Source: Chitinophagaceae bacterium
Lineage (GTDB): Bacteria > Bacteroidota > Bacteroidia > Chitinophagales > Chitinophagaceae
Direction: 5' to 3'
Assembly (NCBI GenBank): GCA_028288595.1
Contig: JAQBNK010000094.1
Coordinates: 1-49,960, forward strand
DNA length: 49,960 bases
Position numbers and translations under genes: made by a program
Notes under the pieces: model-generated
Seen by the model: only the letters and a program-made list of their open reading frames with translations
What the model was told of the DNA's origin: nothing
The model's database searches: none
Shown: positions 19,805 to 49,960 of the stretch, in pieces
How the letters are laid out: every line of letters begins with the position of its first letter
How positions within the stretch are numbered: the stretch's first letter is position 1

Positions 19805-20184
19805 ATGGAAAAGACAATTCACCAGCGCCGAAACATCAAAAGACTCCGCGAAATGCTCGGCATCAAACAGAAGCGCTGGCCCTTGAGTTAGGCGGATCAC
19901 TTTCCAATATATGCTCAACTAACGTCTGTTTCTCCATAAATTATCTTCTTTTAGATATCATAGATTCGAATGCAATTGTTATACTCCATAGAAATAATGC
20001 CATTGTAGATCACGCCATAGTTGATACCGTTTCCTTTTCGGTACAAACCCATCAACTGCGCCGAACCACCGACAATACTTATCGCGGATATTACTTAACC
20101 AATCGGTACGAAGTATTGATACATTCTGAAAATTATTGCACAGTGAGCCGTCTTATTCCGCCTGGTGAGCTAATAACCATTTAA
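19805..20184 (+). pseudogene. Frameshifted XRE-type gene with unknown C-terminal region
   Basis: An ATG at 19805 opens a typical small XRE start (EKTIHQRRNIKRLREMLGIKQ) that stops at 19889. In the -1 frame, the sequence continues the helix-turn-helix as EALALELGGS from 19870 and stays open without a stop to TAA at 20182-20184. One missing base near 19869 would join them into about 126 residues. The continuation (LTNRYEVLIHSENYCTVSRL near its end) is not recognised. The tail overlaps the 3' end of the nuclease gene on the other strand by 32 nt. It may be a decayed regulator, a sequencing error, or a frameshifted gene. Confidence 0.5.
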
Positions 20185-20755
20185 AATAATCCGGCAAACT
20201 CGTATATGCGTCTGAACCATTTAATACAAATGTATTTTTCTGCGTGCTCACAAAATTCTCAGTGACCATCGCATTTAATACATCAGAAGATTCGCCTGTC
20301 TGCACAGACGCATGTAGATAAGGGCTTGTCCGCTCCACGAACCATTGCAGTGAATCATCCGGCAAAATTCGGACTACTGCAATGTTGGAATTCATGGCAA
20401 AAATCAGTGCACCCTGTTCCAAGCTTGATGTTGAAAAGAACATGCATTTTACATTGAGCCCGGTCACCTGTTCGGCTTTTTTGGCAAATTCCTCCAGGTC
20501 GTTGACAGGTATCTTACCAGAATAGTCTTTGCATTCGATCAATACATACAGGGAAGTCGAAACAGCATCGGTACGCCTGCACTCAATGGCTATATCAAAA
20601 ACAATTTCGCCGTCCCTTTTAGAAGAGTAATAACCACGCTTCAGAAAGATTTCCGATGCTTTAAATGCGAAATAAGTAGGATCGTTATCGATAATCCCTT
20701 TTAGTAGTTCAAACACCCTGATCTCAAAAGCAGTTCCCCTGGCGGTCGTGTTCAT
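20153..20755 (-). CDS. Restriction-endonuclease-like protein (Mrr-type PD-(D/E)xK)
   Basis: A 200-residue protein with the core of a PD-(D/E)xK nuclease: Glu11 in GTAFEIRVFELL, Asp54 in FDIAIEC and Glu74-Cys-Lys76 in LIECKDYSGKI, followed by the helix LEEFAKKAEQVTG typical of the Mrr catalytic domain. The last 70 residues (after about 130) show no known domain. It is divergent from an ImmA/IrrE protease gene with only 40 nt between them, which suggests joint control. Likely role is cleavage of foreign or modified DNA; a toxin role in a three-part system is also possible. Confidence 0.75.
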   Translation of the reverse strand: MNTTARGTAFEIRVFELLKGIIDNDPTYFAFKASEIFLKRGYYSSKRDGEIVFDIAIECRRTDAVSTSLYVLIECKDYSGKIPVNDLEEFAKKAEQVTGLNVKCMFFSTSSLEQGALIFAMNSNIAVVRILPDDSLQWFVERTSPYLHASVQTGESSDVLNAMVTENFVSTQKNTFVLNGSDAYTSLPDYFKWLLAHQAE

Positions 20756-20771
20756 GTAGCTAAATATTGTA

Positions 20772-20781
20772 GTAAATTTAC
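20772..20781. promoter_or_regulatory. Short palindrome in the shared promoter region
   Basis: GTAAATTTAC is a perfect 10-bp palindrome within the 40-nt gap between the divergent nuclease and ImmA/IrrE genes, placed so that one bound regulator could affect both. Confidence 0.35.
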
Positions 20782-20795
20782 ATAAATGAGCTTAC

Positions 20796-21527
20796 ATGAT
20801 TGCCAAGGGATTGGAACGACTGTCGGGCGAGACCATTGATGAGCGTGCAACCAAATTATTGATGCATTTCAAGGAAAACTATTTTCAGTTCATTCGGCCG
20901 ACATATGTAAGGGATATTGCCACCTTTTTGCACGAAAAGCACAAGATCGAGTTTGATTTTACCGCCACACTTGGGTTTGGAGCCGACGGAGGAAAGATCA
21001 TTGGTGCTTTCAACCCAGTCAAAAAGATCATACTCATTGATGCTTCGCTTTCATCAGACGAATCGAAATTCAATTTTACTTTGGCGCATGAATTTGGACA
21101 TCTATCCTTACATCGAAATATTAAACTGATCTATGAACCTGAGGATGATAAGAACGGTTCAGATACACTGGCTTTAAAAGAAAAATGCAGAACAGACGGT
21201 GACTGGATGGAATGGCAGGCCAATAGGTATGCTGCAGCCTTGTTACTTCCCAAGACGATGTTAGAACAGAAGCTGGCAAGAATACAAGTAGACATGGGTA
21301 TTTCCAGACTGGGACATATCATCATCAACCAGCATCCCTCCAGCTACTCGGATTATTCCCAGATTGTCGCCAGCTTAAGCGATTATTTCAAAGTTTCAAT
21401 AACCGCCGTTCAGATTCGATTAAAGAACCTTGGCTTTGTAACCGATCATCGTGTTCGAAAAATGGCCGCAACAGATTGGCTGGAAGCATTGAAACCACAG
21501 CAACCGGAAGAGGATATTCCTTTCTGA
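20796..21527 (+). CDS. ImmA/IrrE family metallo-endopeptidase
   Basis: A 243-residue zinc protease with HEFGH at residues 98-102 inside LAHEFGHLSLH, and EWQANRYAAALLLPK about 45 residues later, whose Glu is the usual third ligand. ImmA/IrrE enzymes cut XRE-type repressors to release mobile-element or stress genes. The C-terminal 50 residues are helical (SDYFKVSITAVQIRLKNLG), as in other members. It is divergent from the PD-(D/E)xK gene. The frameshifted XRE gene nearby could be the remains of its target repressor. No fused helix-turn-helix is seen. Confidence 0.9.
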   Translation: MIAKGLERLSGETIDERATKLLMHFKENYFQFIRPTYVRDIATFLHEKHKIEFDFTATLGFGADGGKIIGAFNPVKKIILIDASLSSDESKFNFTLAHEFGHLSLHRNIKLIYEPEDDKNGSDTLALKEKCRTDGDWMEWQANRYAAALLLPKTMLEQKLARIQVDMGISRLGHIIINQHPSSYSDYSQIVASLSDYFKVSITAVQIRLKNLGFVTDHRVRKMAATDWLEALKPQQPEEDIPF

Positions 21528-21632: not shown

Positions 21633-22088
21633 TTACTCACCCACCTTTTCAATTATTTCACTAAATGTATTTTTCAACAGTGACTGCAAGGCTTTGATCC
21701 GTCCAGATAATTCAATCATTTCCTGAGTATTTGTAATGGTCGATTTAACCATCCTTTCATCGATCCTTCTGGGCATGAGCAAACTGAAAAGTCTTGTTTC
21801 GTCAACTGTATCATTAGGGAAAATTATTTTTATTTCAGGAATAATAAGAGACGCACAACCAAATAATTTATAGGTATGATGTGTTTTGGAAATTTCATTC
21901 ATAAGCGATGATGTAACCGCTTTCAAAGTAAATTCCGTTGAAAGACGCAAGTGCAAAAGCACATGAGCAGGATCGTTACTTTCAAGCGAAGCATTTGTTA
22001 CATATTCTTCAGCCTGCCCAATCCACCAGTTAAATTTTTGAATAGCTTTTTCTTTGGACGGTATATTGATGTGCTCACGGGATGCCAT
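21633..22088 (-). CDS. HEPN-domain protein
   Basis: A 151-residue all-helical protein. The stretch KFNWWIGQAEEYVTNASL, then PAHVLLHLRLSTEFTLKAV, then SKTHHTYKLFGCASLIIPE follows the HEPN helical bundle (the RLSTEFTLKA helix corresponds to the qaaEkalKA helix of PF05168, and THHTYKL to its tHdL motif). The Rx4-6H motif of toxic HEPN RNases is not obvious, so ligand or partner binding is as likely as RNA cleavage. It is the last gene of a four-gene operon; its ATG shares one base with the stop of the upstream gene (TAATG). Confidence 0.65.
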   Translation of the reverse strand: MASREHINIPSKEKAIQKFNWWIGQAEEYVTNASLESNDPAHVLLHLRLSTEFTLKAVTSSLMNEISKTHHTYKLFGCASLIIPEIKIIFPNDTVDETRLFSLLMPRRIDERMVKSTITNTQEMIELSGRIKALQSLLKNTFSEIIEKVGE

Positions 22089-22711
22089 TAAACTTTGTTT
22101 GGTGATTTTCGCCTGATGTAAATCAGGTGAGACGCCTCAATCAATTTTTGCAAATGTTGGTGCAGGTATAGTAGGTTGATGTGTTTGTCTTCAGCATAGC
22201 AGGTCTCTTTACGTAGCCCGTGATCCTTAACGTCCCTTAAACAATCTCGCCAATCACCAAGATTTTCCTGTTTAAAAAAAGTCTTAAACACTTTATAAGG
22301 GTTTAGAAATTCCTTTCGGGACAGGTACCGCGGAAAAAAATCCCACAAAGAAGAATGCTGGTTCCATCCGTTATAAGAGGAGGTGTCAGGCAAAGTTTCT
22401 GCATAGAGATCTGTTTTTATTATGACGCTTGAATCCCTGGAGATTACTTCTTTGTATCGAGCCAGTATGATATTCGCAGCTTCGATCAATCTTACCAGAC
22501 CATCATAGGAAAATAGCATGTCTGTAGCAGGGCCGTCTTTATAAATAAAAGGACTGCCTGCTGCCATTAACAGGTTTGTAATGTACCTGCGGTGCGATTT
22601 AAGCGAGTTGATATTGAAGTATTCATCAATTACCAGGTGTGGATTTTCAATCTCCTGTTCATATAAATTGTAGGGTGAAAGATCAGTTTTAGAATGTTCA
22701 CCGTATGGCAT
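22088..22711 (-). CDS. Protein with two copies of an unrecognised ~75-residue module
   Basis: A 207-residue protein made of two similar halves. Each begins with a YEQEIENPHLVIDEYF-like or SRKEFLNPYKVFKTFF-like start, continues with an R-rich helix (LGDWRDCLRDV in the second), and closes with a helix such as LVRLIEAANIILAR or LQKLIEASHLIYIR. The same module occurs in the two genes upstream. No known family is recognised. The gene is 11 nt after the upstream gene and one base overlaps the next, so it is translated as part of the operon. No catalytic residues or signal peptide are seen. Confidence 0.6.
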   Translation of the reverse strand: MPYGEHSKTDLSPYNLYEQEIENPHLVIDEYFNINSLKSHRRYITNLLMAAGSPFIYKDGPATDMLFSYDGLVRLIEAANIILARYKEVISRDSSVIIKTDLYAETLPDTSSYNGWNQHSSLWDFFPRYLSRKEFLNPYKVFKTFFKQENLGDWRDCLRDVKDHGLRKETCYAEDKHINLLYLHQHLQKLIEASHLIYIRRKSPNKV

Positions 22712-22722
22712 AAAAAAGAATT

Positions 22723-23274
22723 TTAAGATTTTTTACTTTGTTCAATTGCAAGGATAACGTTCATGGTATCGATCAGCTTAAACAGATGCTCAGTAACGGG
22801 AAAGATTTCCTCGGGGTTCTCATCCTGCGCAATGGAATCATTTGAAAGCGCCATTCCCAACCAGCGGTGCAATTCCTCATACCATGCTGTTATTGTTTTG
22901 TATTTAAAAAAACTCCTGAGCACCCTGTAAGGAAAACACATTTCTTCAAGCGTCAGGTTCATTGGAAAATCTTCCAGGTCTTTTGTTCTTTTTTCCAATA
23001 TGCGTATTAGATCAAAAGCGTCTTCAAATTCGTCGTCCTCGTCTTTGACATTGTTTTTTTTACGCTCCTGTATTATTTCCCTGGCGATTGCAATAAGTTC
23101 TTTCAGGTGGTCATAGAAAAATAAAAGATTGCCTGGTGAGCCCTGGTTCCATTTATACTCTTCTGACATGGCCGAGTCGATCCATCTTTGCAGGTCCTGT
23201 CTTGCTCCATGCAGGTGCCAGATTTCAAAAAACTGCTTAATGACAGTAAAAGGATATTTCAAAGTCTTACCCAT
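22723..23274 (-). CDS. Protein with two divergent copies of the same ~75-residue module
   Basis: A 183-residue protein. Residues 6-70 (YPFTVIKQFFEIWHLHGARQ to LKELIAIAREIIQER) and about 104-180 (LTLEEMCFPYRVLRSFFKYK to LFKLIDTMNVILA) are two copies of the repeated module. They are joined by an acidic linker (KDEDDEFEDAFD), which is rich enough in Asp/Glu to be flexible. The copies are the most divergent of the five. The start overlaps the end of the upstream gene by 8 nt. Function unknown; an adaptor or scaffold role for the HEPN proteins is an inference. Confidence 0.58.
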   Translation of the reverse strand: MGKTLKYPFTVIKQFFEIWHLHGARQDLQRWIDSAMSEEYKWNQGSPGNLLFFYDHLKELIAIAREIIQERKKNNVKDEDDEFEDAFDLIRILEKRTKDLEDFPMNLTLEEMCFPYRVLRSFFKYKTITAWYEELHRWLGMALSNDSIAQDENPEEIFPVTEHLFKLIDTMNVILAIEQSKKS

Positions 23275-24406
23275 CCTTTAAAGCTTTAAATTCTTCCATC
23301 TTGGCATCGAATTCTTTTACCGCTTTTTGCAATAACAGTTTTATTCGTTCCAATAATGTTTGAAGAGTATTATCAGAAGGTGTGAACCCTTCGAAATAAC
23401 GTGCTTTGATATAAGATTTTTGAAGCGCATCAAAAATCTCGGATTCCTCTTTTGTATTATTTGGGAACAGATCACCTAAAGCGGGAACGTAGCGGCGTAT
23501 ATTAACCATATAAATCTCAAGGTCATGAACCGAGGGATCTACGCCCATAAATGCTAATAACAAAGAGCGAAGCGTGAGTTCAACGGACTGGTGCAGCATA
23601 AAACAGGCAAATGCATTTTCTTTTTTTTCATAGTAAAAAGATGCGCCTTCATAAAACGATTCTGCTTTTTGCAAGCCTTTCAAAAAAACCTGTCTTGCGT
23701 TATTAATTAAGTGTTTTACCGGCACAAAATCGAAGGAGGGCAAAGGTGTTGTTCCATCATCAAAGAGTAGTTTTTCCTTTTTACACGCAAGACTATAAAA
23801 AAGATGACCCTTCGAAAGCAGTTCGTATACTCTTCCGGCCTTAACAAGTTGAAGCGAAAGTTCGGCTTGACCCTTGAGAATATCTTTAATAAACCTTTCA
23901 TGCTCTTCAAACTTGTTGCGGTTGGTTGATGGCAGAAGGATAAGTAAATCATAAAAAGGCAGTTGTTCGCTGCCATCTGCAATTGTTTTATCACGAAGCA
24001 GGAATATTTTTTCAGCCGAAGTGATCGCGAGAATTTTCTTTGTGATCTTTTTCAGTTGCGGCTTTTCAAAAAGTAAAGCATTGGTTGTTACACTTTCGTG
24101 AAGCGTTTTTTTGTTTACTATTCTTGTGAGCGCAGAACCATTCTTCCGGTCATGGATGATGTGCGCGGCCTCAATCAATCTTTCTACTTGTTCATAAAAA
24201 GAAAATATCCTGTGGCGACTTCTATCACTGGGGTTTTCATTAAAGTCACCGGTAACTGTTGCTCTCAAAGAGTCTCGGAGTATATCACGGAACTGTGGTA
24301 AATGGGCATAATCAAAAAAAGAATCCAGGGCCTGATAGGGATTTTCGATCTCTTCTTTGGTTAGGTGGCGGGGTGCTAAATCTGCTTTGCTGAATTCAAT
24401 AGACAT
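23267..24406 (-). CDS. Module + degenerate nucleotidyltransferase + HEPN fusion protein
   Basis: A 379-residue protein (start at the ATG complementary to 24404-24406; one three codons earlier is possible). Residues about 12-85 are one copy of the repeated module (LTKEEIENPYQALDSFFDY to VERLIEAAHIIHDRK). The middle, about 115-230, looks like a Pol-beta-type nucleotidyltransferase with strand FYDLLILLPS, but the GSxxRG-type signature is missing, so it is probably inactive. Residues about 245-375 are a HEPN bundle (SVELTLRSLLLAF, then VHDLEIY). It is the first gene of the operon, starting just after a palindrome-rich region shared with a divergent XRE gene. Confidence 0.68.
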   Translation of the reverse strand: MSIEFSKADLAPRHLTKEEIENPYQALDSFFDYAHLPQFRDILRDSLRATVTGDFNENPSDRSRHRIFSFYEQVERLIEAAHIIHDRKNGSALTRIVNKKTLHESVTTNALLFEKPQLKKITKKILAITSAEKIFLLRDKTIADGSEQLPFYDLLILLPSTNRNKFEEHERFIKDILKGQAELSLQLVKAGRVYELLSKGHLFYSLACKKEKLLFDDGTTPLPSFDFVPVKHLINNARQVFLKGLQKAESFYEGASFYYEKKENAFACFMLHQSVELTLRSLLLAFMGVDPSVHDLEIYMVNIRRYVPALGDLFPNNTKEESEIFDALQKSYIKARYFEGFTPSDNTLQTLLERIKLLLQKAVKEFDAKMEEFKALKDG

Positions 24407-24426
24407 GCAACACATTTGTATAAAAA

Positions 24427-24464
24427 TACAAGTTGTAATTGTATTAATACAAATATAAATTGTA
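24427..24464. promoter_or_regulatory. Cluster of TACAA/TTGTA palindromes between divergent genes
   Basis: TACAAGTTGTA (24427-24437), TTGTATTAATACAA (24439-24452, perfect) and TACAA-N7-TTGTA (24448-24464) lie back to back, 20 nt from the HEPN operon start and 65 nt from the XRE gene. This is a likely binding array for the XRE protein, controlling both directions. Confidence 0.6.
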
Positions 24465-24529
24465 AATAGATGTAACTATCTGACTTTCAAAAGTTAAATA
24501 AGGTGCTTGTATTATTTTTGATTTTATAC

Positions 24530-24736
24530 ATGGATAAAATCAATCGCATAAAAGAAGTATTAGTTACAAAGGATGTTGCCCAAAAAGAACTGGCAAAAAA
24601 GATGGGACGTAGCGCAAATACGATTGCTTCGATTTGCAATAATAAGACGCAACCTCATCTGCGAGATTTAAAAAAGATTGCGAAAATTCTCGATGTGGAT
24701 ATTAGAGAATTGCTGGTGCCTACAAAAAGCACTTGA
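24530..24736 (+). CDS. Small XRE regulator (controller-protein type)
   Basis: A 68-residue protein started at the ATG at 24530 (an upstream in-frame start would add a hydrophobic leader with no role). The helix-turn-helix covers AQKELAKKMGRSANTIASICNN, followed by LRDLKKIAKILDVDIRELL, the usual XRE layout, and ends in PTKST. Its size is that of control proteins of restriction systems. It faces away from the HEPN operon across a palindrome cluster, and the HNH nuclease gene lies 157 nt downstream on the same strand, so it could regulate either or both. Confidence 0.82.
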   Translation: MDKINRIKEVLVTKDVAQKELAKKMGRSANTIASICNNKTQPHLRDLKKIAKILDVDIRELLVPTKST

Positions 24737-24893
24737 ATTTTTGAATCGGATTATTCGAAAGTTGTTATCAGGTAACAATCTTGACAGGGGTGCTTTAAAA
24801 TTAAGAGCAATTACAATTAAATGATGCAGGACAAAGGAAAGCGTTTTGCCAGCAGGTGATACCGCATTCGATACACCAAAATATAAATTTAAC

Positions 24894-25895
24894 ATGCTGC
24901 AACAGTTTAATAGTATTTGCGAATTCCGGCAGCAAAACCCCGGCACTAGGGGCAGTGGACTAACCATGAATGACCCAGTTTTGATCCCTGTAAAAAAAGA
25001 TCTTGAGGAACTAAAGAATTCCTTAAGGCAAAAGTTTGAAAATTACAGGGGTTTTCATTTTTCATTCGAAGTATCCCACGGCCAATCCTATTACCCCAGT
25101 ATTCTCCATGTTTCAATTTTACCTCCCGGCCAATCAGTTTCTAAAGGCATATATTTAGTAATCTGTTTTGATATTCTTGGGCGGGGAGCATTAGTTGGTT
25201 GCGCGGAGTCTGTAACACAGCCCCAAGGTTTGAATACCACTAAACGAAAGAAAAGGAATGTCGAATTAAGAATTAATGTAGATGGATTAAGGAGCACAAC
25301 TAAGTACAACGACGCATTTGAAAACCCTAAAGAGTTCTACTATGGCACCCGAGAGGAAGCTGAATTTCTTTCACATATAGAGCTTTCATTAGACCTGGCT
25401 TTATACCATTTAGGACTTGGAGATTCGCCTCATTTGCGAATCGAGGACAAAGTGGTCGCGGGAATCAATGAACCAGAATTCGATCCATCCAATTTGCTGG
25501 ACGCAAGAACAAAAATTGCAAAGCAAATAACGGCAAGAAGGGGACAGAAGAAGTTTCGTAAAACGGTGCTCAAGGCTTATAATGGAAAGTGTGCAGTCAC
25601 CGGTAGTGATGTCGAGCCTGTACTTGAAGCTGCCCATATAGTACCTTACAAAGGCCTCCAAACAAACCACATAAAAAACGGGATATTATTGCGATCGGAT
25701 ATCCATTTGCTTTTTGATTTGGGACTATTAACTGTTGAATGGGAAACAATGAAAATTAAGGTACATTCTTCCCTAAGCGGAACATATTACTTCCAGTTTA
25801 ACGATGTAAAGATTTACCTGCCGACAAATACTTCCGACTATCCACATCCTGAAGCCCTGAAACACCACAGCGAGGTTGAATTTAAAAGAGTTTGA
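24894..25895 (+). CDS. HNH endonuclease with MrcB-like N-terminal domain
   Basis: A 333-residue protein when started at the ATG at 24894; a TTG 48 nt upstream is a longer option. The C-terminal part is an HNH_2 nuclease: KAYNGKCAVTGSDVEPVLEAAH, with AHIVPY supplying the first His, then KNGILLRSDIHLLFDLGLL with Asn and His completing the site. The first 200 residues (FHFSFEVSHGQSYYPSILHV, GIYLVICFDILGRGALVGC) resemble the MrcB/DUF3578-type DNA-recognition region of modification-dependent enzymes. This suggests a type IV (methylation-dependent) restriction enzyme. N-terminal assignment is tentative; the HNH call is firm. Confidence 0.82.
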   Translation: MLQQFNSICEFRQQNPGTRGSGLTMNDPVLIPVKKDLEELKNSLRQKFENYRGFHFSFEVSHGQSYYPSILHVSILPPGQSVSKGIYLVICFDILGRGALVGCAESVTQPQGLNTTKRKKRNVELRINVDGLRSTTKYNDAFENPKEFYYGTREEAEFLSHIELSLDLALYHLGLGDSPHLRIEDKVVAGINEPEFDPSNLLDARTKIAKQITARRGQKKFRKTVLKAYNGKCAVTGSDVEPVLEAAHIVPYKGLQTNHIKNGILLRSDIHLLFDLGLLTVEWETMKIKVHSSLSGTYYFQFNDVKIYLPTNTSDYPHPEALKHHSEVEFKRV

Positions 25896-25933
25896 ATTTA
25901 AAAAAGGTAGAGAGTTTGTACCTGCTTGGGTAA

Positions 25934-26068
25934 AACGAAGAAGAAACAATTCCTTTTGATGATGCGCCGACGTTCACGGAGTACTTTAGAATTTCTGCGA
26001 AAGAGTTTTTACACTGGATAAAAATTGCCCGAAGTCATTTGAATTTTATTTCGAATAAACGCGATTAA
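25934..26068 (+). pseudogene. Open C-terminal fragment of an unknown gene
   Basis: A 44-codon open frame after a stop, with no start, reads EETIPFDDAPTFTEYF and SAKEFLHWIKIARSHL, which looks like genuine protein composition. It is cut off on the left by the HNH gene end. It overlaps a second fragment on the other strand. Confidence 0.3.
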
Positions 26069-26179
26069 GTCCGGCCCCTCAAACCTGGTAAACATAAATG
26101 TTTTCTTTCCCGCATCTTTGATTGATGCCCCGATGTGATAAAATTTGCAGTCATCTATAATTAAAAATCTGGGTTGACT
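26009..26179 (-). pseudogene. C-terminal fragment of an ORF6N-type protein
   Basis: A 56-codon fragment on the minus strand reads PRFLIIDDCKFYHIGASIKD and GKKTFMFTRF. This matches the tail of Bacteroidota ORF6N-domain proteins (the HIGASLKDLGKK block). The N-terminal ORF6N domain and a start codon are missing, so this is a remnant. Confidence 0.55.
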
Positions 26180-26372
26180 TTATAACTTCCTTGTTTTGTT
26201 TTTTATAAATCCAAAAAGCCAACCAAATAGCCCCAAGGCTACCCAACGCACAACCTATTGCGTTTTGTATTAACGAAGACCAGTAGGCTGGGAAATGAGT
26301 GACAAATTTGTATAACTGTATAAAAAAGTCTTGCACGTTGAATAGAGTTGAGTTGGATACTAATTTAACCAA
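26151..26372 (-). CDS. Truncated small membrane protein
   Basis: A 73-codon frame with one membrane helix (NAIGCALGSLGAIWLAFWIYKK) preceded by an amphipathic segment. This layout is that of the N-terminus of longer single-pass Bacteroidota proteins in which a long coiled region follows the KQNKE segment. Here the frame runs into the ORF6N fragment and stops, so it is probably a truncated gene. Function unknown. Confidence 0.35.
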   Translation of the reverse strand: MVKLVSNSTLFNVQDFFIQLYKFVTHFPAYWSSLIQNAIGCALGSLGAIWLAFWIYKKQNKEVIKSTQIFNYR

Positions 26373-26470
26373 AAGAATCTATCTAGGTTCATTGATAGAA
26401 ACTATGCAATTGGCAAATAGATTATTGCAATGTAATAACTCTACTATAAAAACCTTCCAAAATATAATAA

Positions 26471-26575
26471 ATGAGAAACCTGTCTTTATATGACCAACCC
26501 ATTACTGTTGAGGTTCTTCGTGAACTACACAGCTTAAAAAAAGACATTAAAGAGAGAAGACAGAAAGGAAATTGA
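26471..26575 (+). CDS. Very small open frame, doubtful
   Basis: 34 codons starting at an ATG, reading LYDQPITVEVLRELHSLKKD and ending in a basic tail. The composition is protein-like, but length and lack of relatives known to me make it uncertain. Confidence 0.2.
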   Translation: MRNLSLYDQPITVEVLRELHSLKKDIKERRQKGN

Positions 26576-26934
26576 ACACTGTTTTGTTTCCAATAACTCT
26601 TGGCAGCCACATCCGATTAGCTTCCATACTACCACATATTTTCCGCTATTCTGAAAAAGGAAAAAAAAGAACATAGGGAATGCTACAATGTGAGGTTGCG
26701 CTTGTGCGCTAAGGGAATTTGATATTGAAACTGAACGGTTTTAAGCTAGTGCCTCACTAGTTCAATTGATGGTTTGTTTTTCTGATACTGGCTCAATTTT
26801 ATGGCAAGTCATTAATAGCAAATGCGTAAACATAATAAACTCATAATCTAACAACCCAATCATCTAACGGTCTTCAAGATAGATTTTTAATCTATAGAGA
26901 AAAAAGCTAATTTGGCATAAAGTATGATAGGTGC
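26576..26934. other. Gene-free AT-rich stretch before the methyltransferase operon
   Basis: No coding frame is supported on either strand. It must contain the promoter of the operon that starts at 26935, but no convincing TTG/TAnnTTTG pair was identified. Confidence 0.4.
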
Positions 26935-28029
26935 ATGGCTATAAATACTAAAAAATTTTCATATAAAGATTTCTCTGTTGTAGATATTTTTTGCGGAGTC
27001 GGGGGTCTAACGCACGGTTTTGTAAAGGAAAAATTCCGGGTGAAAGCGGGGGTGGACTTTGACGAAAGTTGCAAGTTTGCTTTTGAAAAAAATAATAAGG
27101 CAAAATTTTTTCATAAGGATGTGACCATCCTCAAAGCGAATGAGCTCGAGTCGTTATTTGAAAAAAATAAAAAGAAAATACTGGTTGGTTGTGCTCCGTG
27201 TCAGCCGTTCTCACTCTACAACAGCAAAAATTCTCAAAGCAGTAAGAAAATGACGGAGGATAACAAATGGAAACTTTTATATTCTTTTGCTGATCTTATA
27301 GAGAAAACAAAGCCTGAGATCATTTCAATGGAAAATGTTCCACAGCTAGTAAAATTCAATAATGGTAAGGTTTTTAATGAGTTCGTTCAAAAATTGAAAA
27401 GCAAAGGTTACTTTGTAAGCTGGAGCATTGTTAATGCACAAGATTACGGAGTGCCTCAACGAAGAAAAAGATTGATTTTGTTCGGCTCATTGCAAGGTGA
27501 GATTAAGCTAATTGAAAAGACCATAAAAAAGGGAGACTATGTAACTGTACGAGATGCCATCGGCGAATTACCGCCTGTCGAAGATGGAATAGCTCATCCG
27601 GACGATCCTATTCACCGTGCACGAAAACTTACAGATCTTAATAAGAGAAGAATTCAGGCCACAACTGAGGGCGGGTTCTGGAGAGATTGGGATGAAAGCC
27701 TTTTGCTTGCATGTCATAAAACGGAAAGCGGTAAAAATTTCAGAAGCGTTTACGGCAGGATGAGCTGGGATGATGTCGCTCCCACCATGACTACGTACTG
27801 TACAGGGCTCGGCAATGGAAGATTCGGCCATCCTGACCAGGATAGAGCTATCACCTTACGCGAAGCCGCTATATTTCAAAGTTTCCCCCCAAAATATGTT
27901 TTTACGAATCCTGAACAACCGATACCTGCTCAGACGATCGCCCGCCATATAGGCAACGCCGTGCCAGTCGGGTTGGGAGTAGCTATAGCGAAAAGCATTA
28001 AACAACACATTGAGAGCTTAAATGCCTAA
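26935..28029 (+). CDS. dcm: DNA cytosine-5 methyltransferase
   Basis: A 364-residue C5-cytosine methyltransferase with all main motifs in order: motif I DIFCGVGGLTHGF (17-29), motif IV GCAPCQPFS with catalytic Cys89, motif VI MENVPQ (132-137), motif VIII QRRKRLILFG near 175, and motif X HIGNAVPVGLG near the C-terminus. The target-recognition region between VIII and IX is about 90 residues long, so a single specificity is expected. It is the first gene of a six-gene operon and overlaps the next by 8 nt. It should protect host DNA from the nuclease genes that follow and supply the 5mC that the last gene (vsr) helps repair. Confidence 0.95.
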   Translation: MAINTKKFSYKDFSVVDIFCGVGGLTHGFVKEKFRVKAGVDFDESCKFAFEKNNKAKFFHKDVTILKANELESLFEKNKKKILVGCAPCQPFSLYNSKNSQSSKKMTEDNKWKLLYSFADLIEKTKPEIISMENVPQLVKFNNGKVFNEFVQKLKSKGYFVSWSIVNAQDYGVPQRRKRLILFGSLQGEIKLIEKTIKKGDYVTVRDAIGELPPVEDGIAHPDDPIHRARKLTDLNKRRIQATTEGGFWRDWDESLLLACHKTESGKNFRSVYGRMSWDDVAPTMTTYCTGLGNGRFGHPDQDRAITLREAAIFQSFPPKYVFTNPEQPIPAQTIARHIGNAVPVGLGVAIAKSIKQHIESLNA

Positions 28030-30040
28030 TTCAACACCAGAGGAACATCACAAGTATGAAATGAAAATGAGTCTTGAGGTGCTTAAACATCTCGGGCTTA
28101 ATCTGTATAGTAATATCCCTGCCGTGCTTGCAGAAGCGGTATCTAACTCGTATGATGCAGACGCGGACAAAATCACTATTCAAATCGAAGAGGGAAAAAT
28201 TACGATCAGTGACGATGGCAACGGCATGACATTGAACGAGATCAATAATAAATTTCTCCTTGTCGGCTATAAAAAAAGAGAAGATATAGGTGGAGGTTTG
28301 TCTTTTAAATATCACCGACCCGTTATGGGAAGGAAAGGCATTGGCAAACTTTCTTTGTTTTCGATCGCTAATAACATAGAGATACACACGATAAAAGACG
28401 GAGAAAAAAACGGTCTTACATTAAACCGGTTCGAAATAGAGAAGCAGATAGCTGATGATAAAAAGTATTACCCGATGGACGTTCCAGCGGATGCCTTCAA
28501 CATTGAGAAAGGAACTACAATCATCCTGACGAATTTCAAAAGGTCCACAGCATATTCGGAAATGTACTTGCGAAGAAGACTGGCCAAGCGGTTCAGCGTT
28601 ATCGGTGATTCTTTTCAAGTAATCGTGAACGTAACTCCCATCGGCGTCGCCGACAGAGACTTTTTTAAAAAAGTGCAATTCCTATGGCTGATCGGCTTAG
28701 CGGACATAACTAGCGTCGCTAAACATTCTTATACCTCTGTAGCTAAACTACCAGGAGATTTTCTAGTAATCGAAAAGGAAAATGGAAAACAAATCAGTAC
28801 GCCAGTGTCTATTTCAGGCTGGATCGGCGCAGTTCAAGTTCCGGCGGATCTCGAAGAGGAAAGCGCAAACAACAATAAAATAAGTATTTTATCCCGCGGC
28901 AAATTGTGGCTGGAAGATATCTTAAGAACATACAACGAAAGCGGCATTTATGCGACTTACCTAATAGGTGAAATTCATGCGGATTTTCTGGATCTCGACG
29001 AAAAGGACGATATAGCTACGAGCAGCAGACAAAGCATTAAGGAAGACGATCCGAGATTCCTGGCTTTGTCGGCTCATGTATTCACATTATTGAAACAAAT
29101 CAAGAGCGTTTGGGTGGCCATGCGAAACGAAGCGGCGAAAACAACTGCGCTCGCCAAGGCGGAGTCGTTTAATCCGGCTCTTCGCGAATGGTTCGATTCT
29201 TTAAAAACAGATAAAAGTCGGGAATATGCTATTAGTTTGTTCGCCACCATCGACTCATTTCACTTCGATAAAGCGGACGAGAATAAACACAAGGCGGTTC
29301 TATACGCTCAGGGAATTTTAGCCTTCGAGAAGTTAAGGTTAAAAGAGAATCTGAATGAATTAGCTCTTATAAAAACACCGGACGACTTGCGTCTCTCTTC
29401 TATTTTTAACAGCATGGACGATATTGAAGCTAGCATGTATTATGACATTGCAGCAGAAAGAGTGGCTATTATTCGGCAGTTTAGAGATTTACTTGATATT
29501 AATGAAAAGGAAAGGGTTATTCAAAAGTATCTATTCAATCATTTATGGCTTTTAAACCCTTCCTGGGAGCGAGCGACTGAAGGCACGGAATCCATGGAGC
29601 AGAGAGTGGAAACCGAGTTTAAAAAAGTAGTCGACTCTTTATCCAAGGAGGAACGCGAGGCGCGGTTTGACATAAAATACAGATCCGCAGCTGGCAAACA
29701 TATTATAATTGAATTGAAAAGATTCCATCCAACTTATAAGATAACCGTTTTTAAATTAGCAGAGCAAGTTTCCAAGTATAAAACCGCTCTTGAGAAATGT
29801 TTATTAGCTATTGGTACAAAAAATCCACATATTGAAACTGTTATAGTACTTGGCGATATTCTAACCGATGACCCCAAAACCGTGACCGGTGTATTACGTG
29901 AAGTCGATAGTCGTGTTATCTATTATGATGAACTCATCGACCAATCGCTACAAGCTTACAGCCAATATCTGGAAAAACAAAAAGACGCCGGACGTATAAA
30001 AGCGATAACAGAAAAGATTCTTAATAACTCAAAAAATTGA
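28022..30040 (+). CDS. MORC-like GHKL ATPase fused to a PD-(D/E)xK-like nuclease
   Basis: A 672-residue protein. The N-terminus is a GHKL (Hsp90/MutL) ATP-binding domain: LAEAVSNSYDADAD with Glu38, Asn42 and Asp45, DDGNG at 64-68, and GRKGIGKLS at 103-111. A long middle region with an S5-like part follows. Near the C-terminus Asp550 (RFDIKY) and Glu564-Leu-Lys566 (IIIELKRFH) form a PD-(D/E)xK-type site, preceded by HLWLLNPSWE as in Shedu-like nucleases. This is the layout of prokaryotic MORC relatives in restriction-modification systems, including the BbrUII/HgiDII type. It is probably the restriction subunit of the operon, with ATP-driven clamping on DNA. Confidence 0.85.
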   Translation: MPNSTPEEHHKYEMKMSLEVLKHLGLNLYSNIPAVLAEAVSNSYDADADKITIQIEEGKITISDDGNGMTLNEINNKFLLVGYKKREDIGGGLSFKYHRPVMGRKGIGKLSLFSIANNIEIHTIKDGEKNGLTLNRFEIEKQIADDKKYYPMDVPADAFNIEKGTTIILTNFKRSTAYSEMYLRRRLAKRFSVIGDSFQVIVNVTPIGVADRDFFKKVQFLWLIGLADITSVAKHSYTSVAKLPGDFLVIEKENGKQISTPVSISGWIGAVQVPADLEEESANNNKISILSRGKLWLEDILRTYNESGIYATYLIGEIHADFLDLDEKDDIATSSRQSIKEDDPRFLALSAHVFTLLKQIKSVWVAMRNEAAKTTALAKAESFNPALREWFDSLKTDKSREYAISLFATIDSFHFDKADENKHKAVLYAQGILAFEKLRLKENLNELALIKTPDDLRLSSIFNSMDDIEASMYYDIAAERVAIIRQFRDLLDINEKERVIQKYLFNHLWLLNPSWERATEGTESMEQRVETEFKKVVDSLSKEEREARFDIKYRSAAGKHIIIELKRFHPTYKITVFKLAEQVSKYKTALEKCLLAIGTKNPHIETVIVLGDILTDDPKTVTGVLREVDSRVIYYDELIDQSLQAYSQYLEKQKDAGRIKAITEKILNNSKN

Positions 30041-30044
30041 AATA

Positions 30045-32192
30045 TTGCCGCGAACTGAAAATATAGAACAAGAAAATGTGCTGCGATGGAGATTTGACGT
30101 CAACACTTTTCGCTTGCTTGGTCGTGAATTAATAACCGATCGGGTTACGGCTGTATTCGAGCTTGTGAAAAATTCCTATGATGCGAACGCTACTGATGTA
30201 ACGGTATCGTTTTTAAATATTAATTCGAAAGAGAATGATAAAAAGATCGTTATCGGTGACAACGGTATAGGAATGTCCTTCGCTGATATTAAAAATAAAT
30301 GGATGGTTGTCGGTACGAATAGTAAACGGACGTCGCTTTATTCCGATCCGCCGTTCAACAGAAAATTCGTCGGAGAAAAAGGAATAGGCCGTTTCGCTGT
30401 TGATAAATTAGGAGAACGCGTTTTAATCAGAACGAAACAAAGGGGAGAAGCTAAATGGTTAAATGTTCAGATCAACTGGGACGAATATGAAAAACAAGCG
30501 AACGCTTCAATCCAGTCAAGTCAGTTATCCTTATTCACCGAAGTGGACAATTATTTTTTTTATGAAGACGGGGATAAAAACGAGCAAGGAACACAATTAA
30601 TTATTTCTAGAATAAGTGAAAAATGGACTGAGAACGACATTGAGAGATTGGATAAAGAGCTTTCAAAGCTTGTCTCACCTTATTATCCAGTCACACCGCC
30701 GTTCGATATACATATAGAATCGAATGATTTTATCAGATTTATTCGGAAGGACGTTAAACCTGATGCAATTAAGTTTTTTTCTCATAAAGGTGAGGGGAAC
30801 TTCGATCTTGAAAAGGAAAAACAGGAGGTCTTGAGGTTTGACACGAAAGCCGGTAAGCTGTACACTGACTGGGAAGATATCAAATCATTCGGCCCCGTCA
30901 AATTCAAGGTATTCTTTTTTAACGAAGCGGCTAAACGCAAGTATAATGCTGCTTACAAAAACGACGAATCGCGAATAGACGGGATCAAAATATATCGCGA
31001 CGGTTTAATCACCACACCCTTTGCCGAATACCAGGAACACAGGGATTATAAAAGAGATATACTCGGCATAGATAAAAGGCTTTGGCGAGATATATTTTTC
31101 CGAATAAGCACCCGGGAAGTAATAGGCGTGCTGGACATCACCAAGGAATTGAATCCCAGGATAATTGAAGCCACAAATAGACAGGATTTTGTTGATAATA
31201 AAGAATACCGCGACCTCAAGGAGTTTATCCTGAATCAACTGGAAGTTTTCTCTGACGTCAAGAGATTCCAATCTCAAAATATTCGTTCGGAAACGGAGCG
31301 GGAGTTGCAAAAAGCCGGGTTGGAAGTGAAAAATTTTGAGCAGGTTATTGAAAAAATAGAGAAGGAGATGGTGATTGATCGTCCTGACCTAAAGAATATT
31401 TTCGATCCGCTGAAAGAACGAGCTATCGAATTGAAAACGGCTATCACGCAAAGCATCAGCGAACAAAAGAAGTTTCAGAAAGAAGTTATTCGCAAAGAGA
31501 ATATCTATCACAGCCTGATGTCACTACAAGATTATGCAACAAACATTTCTCATGCAATCAGGACATCCCTCGGTAAGATCAAAAGACAAGCTGAATTTTT
31601 CAAGATAAATTTTCCTAATCCTAAGTATGACGAACTATTCAAACAGTATGCTGTCATTATAAATGACGAAATGGATGTTCTGATACAGGTTACCGATTTT
31701 ATGTTGAGCTATGCAAGATCTGATATCAATTTCGAAGATTTCAACGTGAAAGATGTGATGGAGAAGCTTCTCCTGCACACGTACAGCGACACGTTCGCTG
31801 CAGAAAAAATAAGTGCTATCGTAGAAATCAGCGATGATTTTATTGTAAATGCAAATAAGCGGTTTTTTGAAGATATTTTCTTGAACTTAATATCTAACTC
31901 AATCAAAGCTTTAAAGCAGACGCAGGATAAGATCATTAAGTGTTCTGGCTATCTGGCGGACGACAATTTTACCCTCTATTTTTCCGACAACGGATACGGC
32001 ATCAACCAGGGAGACGAAAAATGGATATTCGGAATTTACAACACGCGAACAGCCGAGCAAGGTGGTGCGGGTTTAGGTCTTTATATCGTTCAAAAGCGGG
32101 TTGAGGCTCTTAAGGGTACGGTCGAAGTAACGGAGTCGGAATTTTCGCCTGGGGCTACCTTCAGAATTCAATTACCATTTAATCGCAACTAA
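30045..32192 (+). CDS. Double-GHKL protein: Hsp90/MORC-like domain plus histidine kinase
   Basis: A 715-residue protein. Its start is a TTG at 30045, four nt after the previous stop; no ATG is available before residue 77. Domain 1 is GHKL of the Hsp90/MORC type: FELVKNSYDANATD (Glu39, Asn43, Asp46), GDNGIG at 71-76, and GEKGIGRFA at 110. A middle region and coiled coil (about 410-490) lead to a HisKA-like helix with His503 in NISHAIRTSLGKI. The C-terminus is a histidine-kinase HATPase: NLISNSIKAL near 614, SDNGYGIN near 646, then GGAGLGLYIVQKR. Two ATPase modules in one chain, soluble, beside a receiver gene, suggest it senses DNA state and signals. Confidence 0.85.
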   Translation: MPRTENIEQENVLRWRFDVNTFRLLGRELITDRVTAVFELVKNSYDANATDVTVSFLNINSKENDKKIVIGDNGIGMSFADIKNKWMVVGTNSKRTSLYSDPPFNRKFVGEKGIGRFAVDKLGERVLIRTKQRGEAKWLNVQINWDEYEKQANASIQSSQLSLFTEVDNYFFYEDGDKNEQGTQLIISRISEKWTENDIERLDKELSKLVSPYYPVTPPFDIHIESNDFIRFIRKDVKPDAIKFFSHKGEGNFDLEKEKQEVLRFDTKAGKLYTDWEDIKSFGPVKFKVFFFNEAAKRKYNAAYKNDESRIDGIKIYRDGLITTPFAEYQEHRDYKRDILGIDKRLWRDIFFRISTREVIGVLDITKELNPRIIEATNRQDFVDNKEYRDLKEFILNQLEVFSDVKRFQSQNIRSETERELQKAGLEVKNFEQVIEKIEKEMVIDRPDLKNIFDPLKERAIELKTAITQSISEQKKFQKEVIRKENIYHSLMSLQDYATNISHAIRTSLGKIKRQAEFFKINFPNPKYDELFKQYAVIINDEMDVLIQVTDFMLSYARSDINFEDFNVKDVMEKLLLHTYSDTFAAEKISAIVEISDDFIVNANKRFFEDIFLNLISNSIKALKQTQDKIIKCSGYLADDNFTLYFSDNGYGINQGDEKWIFGIYNTRTAEQGGAGLGLYIVQKRVEALKGTVEVTESEFSPGATFRIQLPFNRN

Positions 32193-36337: not shown

Positions 36338-36622
36338 ATCTAAAAAATTGGATATATTATTATTTAAAATCAGTGAAGATTATCGAATATCTGTTTAGAT
36401 CGCTTAAAGGAGGTGAGAAATAATGATATATTCTGTTAATTGAGCGATTTTTTATTTTGCGCTAAAAAAGGTCAAAAAGGCATCCCTTTAACCAAGTACT
36501 TTCCCAAACACAAATAGCGCAGGTACTTTACTTTCTTTGCATTATCGTTTCTAGGCAACAGTAGCTTATGTTTAGAAAAAAAATAACGGAAGCACAGGAT
36601 TTTATTCCAATACTTCCGCTAG

Positions 36623-36694
36623 TAGCCCGTACGGGAGTCGAACCCGTCTTTCCTCCGTGAAAGGGAGATGTCCTAGCCGATAGACGAACGGGCC
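36623..36694 (-). tRNA. tRNA-Glu (anticodon TTC)
   Basis: 72 nt on the minus strand. The acceptor stem GGCCCGT pairs with ACGGGCT, the anticodon loop CTTTCAC gives TTC, the T-loop GGTTCGACTCC is canonical, and the discriminator is A. CCA is not encoded. Its 3' end faces the accessory region, the usual side for integration of mobile DNA. Confidence 0.97.

Positions 36695-49553: not shown

Positions 49554-49960
<407 letters not shown>

Follow-up and report, generated by a model that had tools for sequence, protein, structure and literature searches.

The nearest published operator geometry that we found for the locus studied here is that of C.Csp231I, for which PMC4321490 gives, in its account of the operators, two 15-bp sites of the form CTAAG-N5-CTTAG lying 18 bp apart; the corresponding distance in EcoO109I is 25 bp. 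For the other half of the locus, the closest described systems are those that carry HEPN domains. In the outline given by PMC3710099, HEPN domains fused to nucleotidyltransferases are typically without RNase residues, and HEPN-T genes cluster with restriction-modification (R-M) operons in several instances. Little is known about how the defence islands of Bacteroidota are silenced.

We analysed a stretch of 49,960 nucleotides from a Chitinophagaceae bacterium, called the window below, in which an array of short palindromes separates an XRE regulator gene from a HEPN operon.

The array and its two gene neighbours

The initial annotation of this DNA described three palindromes, one of them a perfect 14-mer, within 38 bp just before the HEPN operon, with the XRE gene diverging on the other side. 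When we checked the sequence, the palindromes, including the 14-mer, lay exactly where they had been placed, and the gaps that flank the array are 11 bp to the HEPN ATG (24415) and 65 bp to the XRE ATG (24530). Read directly from the window, positions 24427-24464 are TACAAGTTGTAATTGTATTAATACAAATATAAATTGTA, and the whole 38 bp form a single inverted repeat with 19-nt arms that are 84% complementary at zero gap. The short palindrome TACAAgTTGTA occupies 24427-24437. The count of three, however, is better replaced by two: the sites exist, but the array is better read as two 17-bp operators of the form TACAA-N7-TTGTA whose centres are two helical turns (21 bp) apart and which meet in the 14-mer. 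This reading follows from the Lewinella relative described below, which preserves the TACAA-N7-TTGTA units but not the 11-mer TACAAGTTGTA. The elements of the intergenic region are as follows.

24448-24464, no strand: candidate operator O1, TACAA-ATATAAA-TTGTA; centre 24456, at -40 of the predicted HEPN start site and 21 bp from O2
24427-24443, no strand: candidate operator O2, TACAA-GTTGTAA-TTGTA; centre 24435, at -19 of the predicted HEPN start site; half-sites and spacing recur in Lewinella (L179)
24439-24452, no strand: perfect 14-mer TTGTATTAATACAA, the junction formed by the two inner half-sites and a 4-bp gap
24406-24422, no strand: site that may be a third, weak operator, spaced in the 21-bp register of the other two and covering the HEPN start codon; perhaps chance
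24453-24450, minus strand: -33-like TTTG toward the HEPN operon, from a promoter scan with the Bacteroidota consensus
24421-24428, minus strand: -7-like TATTTTTA toward the HEPN operon, 5/6 consensus positions with the final G missing; predicted start site 24416
24513-24520, plus strand: -7-like TATTTTTG before the XRE gene, 6/6, without a -33 element; found by eye, predicted start about 24525

The genes on either side are listed next.

24530-24736, plus strand: XRE/Cro-CI helix-turn-helix regulator, 68 aa (HTH_3 E 1.2e-11, residues 7-61)
24846-25895, plus strand: HNH endonuclease gene downstream of the XRE gene (HNH_2 E 8e-13)
26935-28029, plus strand: cytosine-C5 DNA methyltransferase (profile match)
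28022-30040, plus strand: BbrUII/HgiDII-family restriction enzyme, HATPase-type (NF050001 E 4e-219)
30045-32192, plus strand: HATPase/histidine-kinase-like protein; a homologue follows the XRE and methyltransferase genes in L171
23267-24415, minus strand: first gene of the HEPN operon, 382 aa, with helper domain, degenerate nucleotidyltransferase-like domain and C-terminal HEPN; start perhaps ATG 24406 (379 aa)
22723-23274, minus strand: 183-aa helper protein with two helper-domain copies, without Pfam/NCBIfam match
22088-22711, minus strand: 207-aa helper protein with two helper-domain copies
21633-22088, minus strand: closing gene of the operon, a HEPN protein of 151 aa (HEPN E 7.8e-5)

The XRE protein fits the XRE/Cro-CI class, in that the HTH_3 domain covers most of its 68 residues; its best PADLOC Control_protein match (E 6.5e-4) ranks under other helix-turn-helix models. 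The restriction enzyme scores 729.5 bits with NF050001 against a curated cut-off of 550. The HNH gene and about 1 kb separate the XRE gene from the methyltransferase, and these two pieces may be an insertion. We saw no convincing gene in that 1 kb (25896-26934), and in L171 the XRE gene abuts the methyltransferase homologue.

The four genes of the HEPN operon run on the minus strand from 24415 to 21633 and overlap or nearly touch. The helper domain, of about 70 residues, occurs twice in each of the two helper proteins (22088-23274) and once in the first HEPN protein (24130-24415); a solo copy of 104 aa lies elsewhere in the genome (L204:4587-4901). Neither helper protein has a match in Pfam or NCBIfam, and the AlphaFold model of the 207-aa one (pLDDT 72) found no PDB match below E 0.89. 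The model of the first HEPN protein (pLDDT 71) places a strand-containing domain before a HEPN bundle, and its best PDB match is the HEPN protein 4nqf, to the HEPN part, with nucleotidyltransferases at E about 0.001-0.003. The nucleotidyltransferase motif of MNT antitoxins is GS...DxD. Set against this motif, the window protein deviates, reading LLRD...YDLLI, and by eye the homologue in L200 keeps GS...DYD. The Rx4-6H motif is absent from the HEPN domain of the first protein (residues 248-367), in which the H is conserved and the R is not, and its motif text occurs in that protein only at residues 79 and 166; the 151-aa HEPN protein has none. An RNase-toxin reading of the first HEPN gene is unsupported, given the missing motif and what PMC3710099 describes for HEPN-nucleotidyltransferase fusions. 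A protein-pattern scan for the HEPN protein in the genome-contig collection found nothing.

Next to the operon, at 20153-21527, a gene for an Mrr-like nuclease diverges from one for an IrrE/ImmA-like metalloprotease, the latter with a Peptidase_M78 domain and a PADLOC capP match at E 9e-18. IrrE/ImmA-like proteases cleave XRE repressors in other systems; by analogy, this one could be the release factor. Farther off, the window holds a tRNA-Glu gene (36622-36694, minus strand) and, at its end, the start of a 16S rRNA gene (49554-49960).

How much of the array could arise by chance depends on what is counted. Taken singly, the short palindromes mean little, since their numbers in the window are near chance level: TACAANTTGTA with at most one mismatch occurs 6 times where 2.8 would be expected, a count reached in 8 of 100 shuffles, and TTGTAN4TACAA occurs 3 times where 2.73 would be expected, a count reached in 57 shuffles. 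As a pair, two like operators at 21 bp score 22/24 in the 114-bp gap between the XRE and HEPN genes, on a four-half-site score that was devised after single-dyad scoring had separated nothing. Among 4000 dinucleotide shuffles of the gap, 2 reached that score at the 21-bp spacing and 44 at any spacing of 14-43, a modest result for the window alone. With up to 3 mismatches, the 38-bp pattern occurs nowhere else in the genome (4,139,020 bases) except as its own 21-bp-shifted copy at 24406-24443; a reversed control pattern also had one genome match at that threshold.

Relatives of the XRE gene and of the HEPN operon

The closest XRE homologue that we found, at 79% identity, is from Lewinella, a member of another family of the same order (L072/L179, record NZ_QNQZ01000018.1, Lewinella sp. 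IMCC34191; L125 is taken as the same place). Upstream of it stands TACAA-N7-TTGTA-N4-TACAA-N7-TTGTA, ending 20 bp before the XRE ATG. All 20 half-site bases agree with the window (20/20) and all three spacers differ; the best of 5000 shuffles of the Lewinella upstream region reached 16/20. The recognition region is nearly identical in the two proteins, SANTIASICNNK in the window and SANSIASICNNK in Lewinella, in that order. Because the same array precedes this close homologue, we take it as very probable that the 68-aa XRE protein encoded beside it in the window uses the array as its operator.

An 18-base core pattern of the array matched 65 stretches in the genome-contig collection, of which only the Lewinella one adjoins a close XRE gene, with the reservation that a few of the stretches end close to the array, so that neighbours there fall outside view. 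Judged by eye, many of the 65 fall into three sorts: tandem repeats, near-perfect repeats that resemble terminators, and sequence within mechanical reading frames. Four core matches in Gastranaerophilales (L109, L118, L124, L138) are near weakly XRE-like frames (E 0.0001-0.011). In viral contigs, a protein-pattern scan for the XRE protein found nothing and the array scan returned 2 stretches; in one of these two (L169:6622-6657), an array built likewise from ACAA/TTGT precedes a CI-like gene by 80 bp.

If the two-operator reading is right, it predicts that other XRE homologues carry dyads of their own at the same pitch. We examined 16 homologues (55-74% identity), drawn from 66 de-duplicated rows as those with at least 55% identity and at least 150 clean upstream bases, with the window and L072 left out; these loci are partly related, and one of them (L178) had been viewed by eye beforehand. 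A spacing of 21 came out on top (mean z 2.40), followed by 42 (mean z 1.49); the null, taken from 200 shuffle sets at 30 spacings, never exceeded 0.89. The 48 control upstream regions of other genes, each with at least 62% A+T (mean A+T 0.67, against 0.73 in the test set), had a mean z of 0.13 at spacing 21. A z of at least 2.5 was found in 8/16 homologues and in 2/48 controls, the other 8/16 homologues falling below it. These two spacings also ranked highest when 24 loci were scored in an exploratory run.

The letters change from locus to locus. For example, the half-sites are AATAC...GTATT in L183, L185 and L190 and CATTGG...CCAATG in L181, and by eye GTAAG-N5-CTTAC precedes both L191 and L173, although the pair score of L173 is not significant. 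Three operators at the 21-bp pitch fit several loci. Besides Lewinella, we saw no TACAA array by eye in the XRE homologues, and the 18 other scored upstream regions hold 11-16 of the 20 array bases (L178 16, L172 15). Since the full TACAA array is common to one relative only, the claim for the family rests on the spacing statistics, from which its members appear to pair half-site letters of their own with a common 21-bp pitch. We abandoned scores based on single dyads or on mirror symmetry only, because with them the real XRE upstream regions could not be told from shuffled ones.

The XRE gene leads R-M genes in five of the six relatives whose downstream gene was examined (L171, L173, L178, L179, L183). 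In L171 it abuts homologues of the window methyltransferase (58%) and HATPase (56%); in L178 it is followed by a C5 methyltransferase and a HATPase, in L173 by a restriction helicase, in L179 by a D12 methyltransferase and in L183 by a type I HsdR, and L180 has only a sub-threshold nuclease match. On pSD15 (L191), no R-M gene is listed downstream of the XRE gene. As part of the explanation that we favour below, the XRE protein is probably one of a family of small regulators in Bacteroidota that resemble C proteins and are often encoded ahead of R-M genes. Similar-looking proteins of about 105-117 aa diverge from the XRE gene in five loci (L171:683-1009, L172:3243-3560, L173:481-834, L180:5326-5643, L181:6081-6407), in none of which we saw a HEPN operon. 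The one in L181 has no Pfam or NCBIfam match; these proteins may be partners of the XRE switch.

Several loci have HEPN-type genes that diverge from an XRE gene of this kind. Among 38 HEPN loci with 1.5-kb flanks, 7, one of which is the window, have an XRE gene of this family at E<=1e-5, two of them weak. The G618 locus (L178) has a helper gene and a HEPN gene divergent from an XRE gene of 74% identity, and the dyads touch the helper start codon, so that the layout matches the window, with helper/HEPN genes on one side of the dyads and the XRE gene, C5 methyltransferase and HATPase on the other. In G440 (L184), helper genes diverge from an XRE gene. Looser pairings of XRE and HEPN-type genes, separated by roughly 360-700 bp or by an intervening gene, occur in L187, L192, L200, L201 and L202. 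We then considered the 200 bp upstream of 17 HEPN-type operons, some of whose HEPN gene starts were judged by eye and two of which (L184, L204) have helper genes without an identified HEPN gene. Paired 21-bp dyads at P<=0.02 were present only in the window, L178 and L184, which are the three loci with an XRE start within about 200 bp. The other 14 loci have no paired dyads in these 200 bp (P 0.10-1.0; at most 12/20 array bases), and no HEPN genes were seen beside the Lewinella array. Because HEPN-type loci show paired dyads only where an XRE gene starts so close, we assign the array to the XRE gene. On the sequence evidence, it is conserved in one close relative, its spacing is enriched in the family and it follows the XRE gene, not the HEPN operon, which appears to have come under the array in this arrangement.

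Promoter placement and the proposed switch

The Bacteroidota promoter consensus, taken from PMC6847099, is TTTG/TAnnTTTG, and transcription begins 4 or 5 nt farther on; in Flavobacterium johnsoniae, as reported in the same paper, the -33 element is faint and 87% of predicted leaders exceed 10 nt. In the stretch of the window that was scanned, the only pair scoring 9/10 is on the minus strand, directed toward the HEPN operon, with a spacer of 21. An E. coli-type promoter scan was set aside as unsuited to this phylum. If transcription starts at 24416 and translation at ATG 24406 rather than 24415, the HEPN leader is 9-10 nt, which is unusual beside those Flavobacterium leaders. Relative to the likely XRE start site in the window, the operators are distant, at about -69 and -90. 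In Lewinella, by distances taken by hand, the analogous pair points into the XRE gene, the operators are again at -40 and -19 and the leader is 9-10 nt; this agreement is partly built in, because TTGTA itself supplies the TTG and TA. With the pair that faces the helper/HEPN genes of L178, the dyads fall at about -17 and +5.

Because the promoter pair points to the HEPN operon and the XRE -7 element is far away, the window array seems placed chiefly to lock the HEPN promoter. We consider it probable that it is a two-dimer XRE operator on that promoter and that bound XRE keeps the HEPN operon low. Two XRE dimers would lie on the same face of the DNA, given the 21-bp centre spacing, and could cooperate; they would cover the -33 and -7 parts of the promoter firing into the operon, which would be released when XRE falls. 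The same array would probably also tune the XRE gene and, with it, the downstream genes. Binding of the XRE protein, cooperativity, repression and the inducing condition are all steps that we infer. The initial annotation called the array an autoregulated switch that holds the HEPN operon off. Of this, the XRE operator is very probable, and autoregulation is plausible by homology, occlusion of the XRE promoter being no more than possible for an array this distant from the likely XRE start. That the XRE protein represses the HEPN operon is likely, since the array overlaps a promoter-like pair into the operon with operators at -40 and -19, placed as before the Lewinella XRE gene.

That the array tracks the XRE gene could also be taken to mean that it serves only this gene and those downstream, the HEPN operon being a chance neighbour with its own promoter elsewhere. 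The Lewinella array without HEPN genes, the 14 of 17 HEPN-type loci without paired dyads and the XRE genes that head R-M genes in several relatives all favour such an arrangement. We nevertheless regard it as unlikely, if worth keeping in mind, because the array is much closer to the HEPN ATG (11 bp) than to that of the XRE gene (65 bp), the promoter-like pair is directed at the HEPN operon and not at the XRE gene, and the dyad pair of G618 again abuts a helper start codon. The sign of the regulation might also be reversed, with XRE activating the HEPN promoter, or its own. Activating regulators are often centred at -40, as one of the operators is here. For C proteins, PMC4321490 describes activation from the operator farther from the gene and repression from the nearer one. 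A filled operator at -19, however, would be expected to block polymerase, and activation seems to us distinctly unlikely.

Other readings dispense with the XRE protein. TACAA/TTGTA dyads are simple and AT-rich, as sites of a different, global regulator might be, but the 38-bp array is unique in the genome and only one of the 65 core matches lies beside a close XRE gene, which makes such a regulator very improbable. The inverted repeat might instead act as an RNA hairpin, either attenuator or terminator: minus-strand folding has a z of -2.59 (5 of 200 shuffles as good) and plus-strand folding a z of -1.49 (13 of 200). Yet only the half-sites are conserved against Lewinella, the pairing of the inner spacers is not kept, and the predicted start sites put the array outside both transcripts, so that we give a hairpin hardly any weight. 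Chance in AT-rich DNA would account for single palindromes at chance level and for the 44 of 4000 shuffles that match the pair at some spacing; already disfavoured by the Lewinella array, whose 20/20 half-site bases are kept while the spacers have changed, it is scarcely credible.

A broader idea is rather doubtful. Small XRE switches of this kind might be interchangeable, a fixed 21-bp geometry of two or three sites with diverging letters giving regulators in neighbouring defence systems that are blind to one another. The window switch would then tie the R-M system to the divergent HEPN operon, and the HEPN operon, freed by loss of the R-M operon together with the XRE gene, would serve as a second line of defence.

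Comparison with known systems

The array offers a testable candidate operator and, across the XRE family, a possible code that links recognition helix to half-site. It would also be a concrete case in which an R-M-type regulator and a HEPN operon share one control site. Our literature search, which had most subscription journals outside it, recognised no paper on this Bacteroidota XRE family, on the 21-bp pitch or on the link to a HEPN operon.

In the descriptions given by PMC4321490, C.Csp231I and C.EcoO109I resemble the window system in being small DNA-binding dimers with two operators before the regulator gene and with R-M partner genes. The C.Csp231I half-sites of 5 bp with a 5-bp spacer are also like the GTAAG-N5-CTTAC found before L191 and L173. 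The window differs from both in having centres 21 bp apart (4 bp between the 17-mers), other letters, and a HEPN operon across the operator. C.AhdI and C.Esp1396I share the plan of two tandem operators about 4 bp apart, as the same source describes them; in contrast, the canonical GACT/AGTC C-box is absent from the window, whose operators are TACAA/TTGTA, and C.AhdI reaches only E 0.48 in the PDB search with the XRE protein. The closest solved relatives of that protein are 3bs3 and 3omt (E 5e-12 and 1e-8), uncharacterised DNA-binding proteins for which the PDB listing gives no operator or function.

Outside the R-M controllers, RptR is similar in being, as PMC12255303 presents it, a tiny repressor that comes first in a defence island (type I R-M/DarTG2) and has several palindromes over its own promoter. 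It belongs, however, to no known regulator class, uses 6-bp TAGCTA sites and comes from Gammaproteobacteria. The operon on the other side of the array recalls the MNT-HEPN toxin-antitoxin and HEPN-T families outlined in PMC3710099, with which it shares a HEPN domain, a nucleotidyltransferase-like domain and clustering with R-M genes; in the window, by comparison, the two domains are fused, the catalytic motifs are degenerate, and helper-domain proteins that belong to no family are added.
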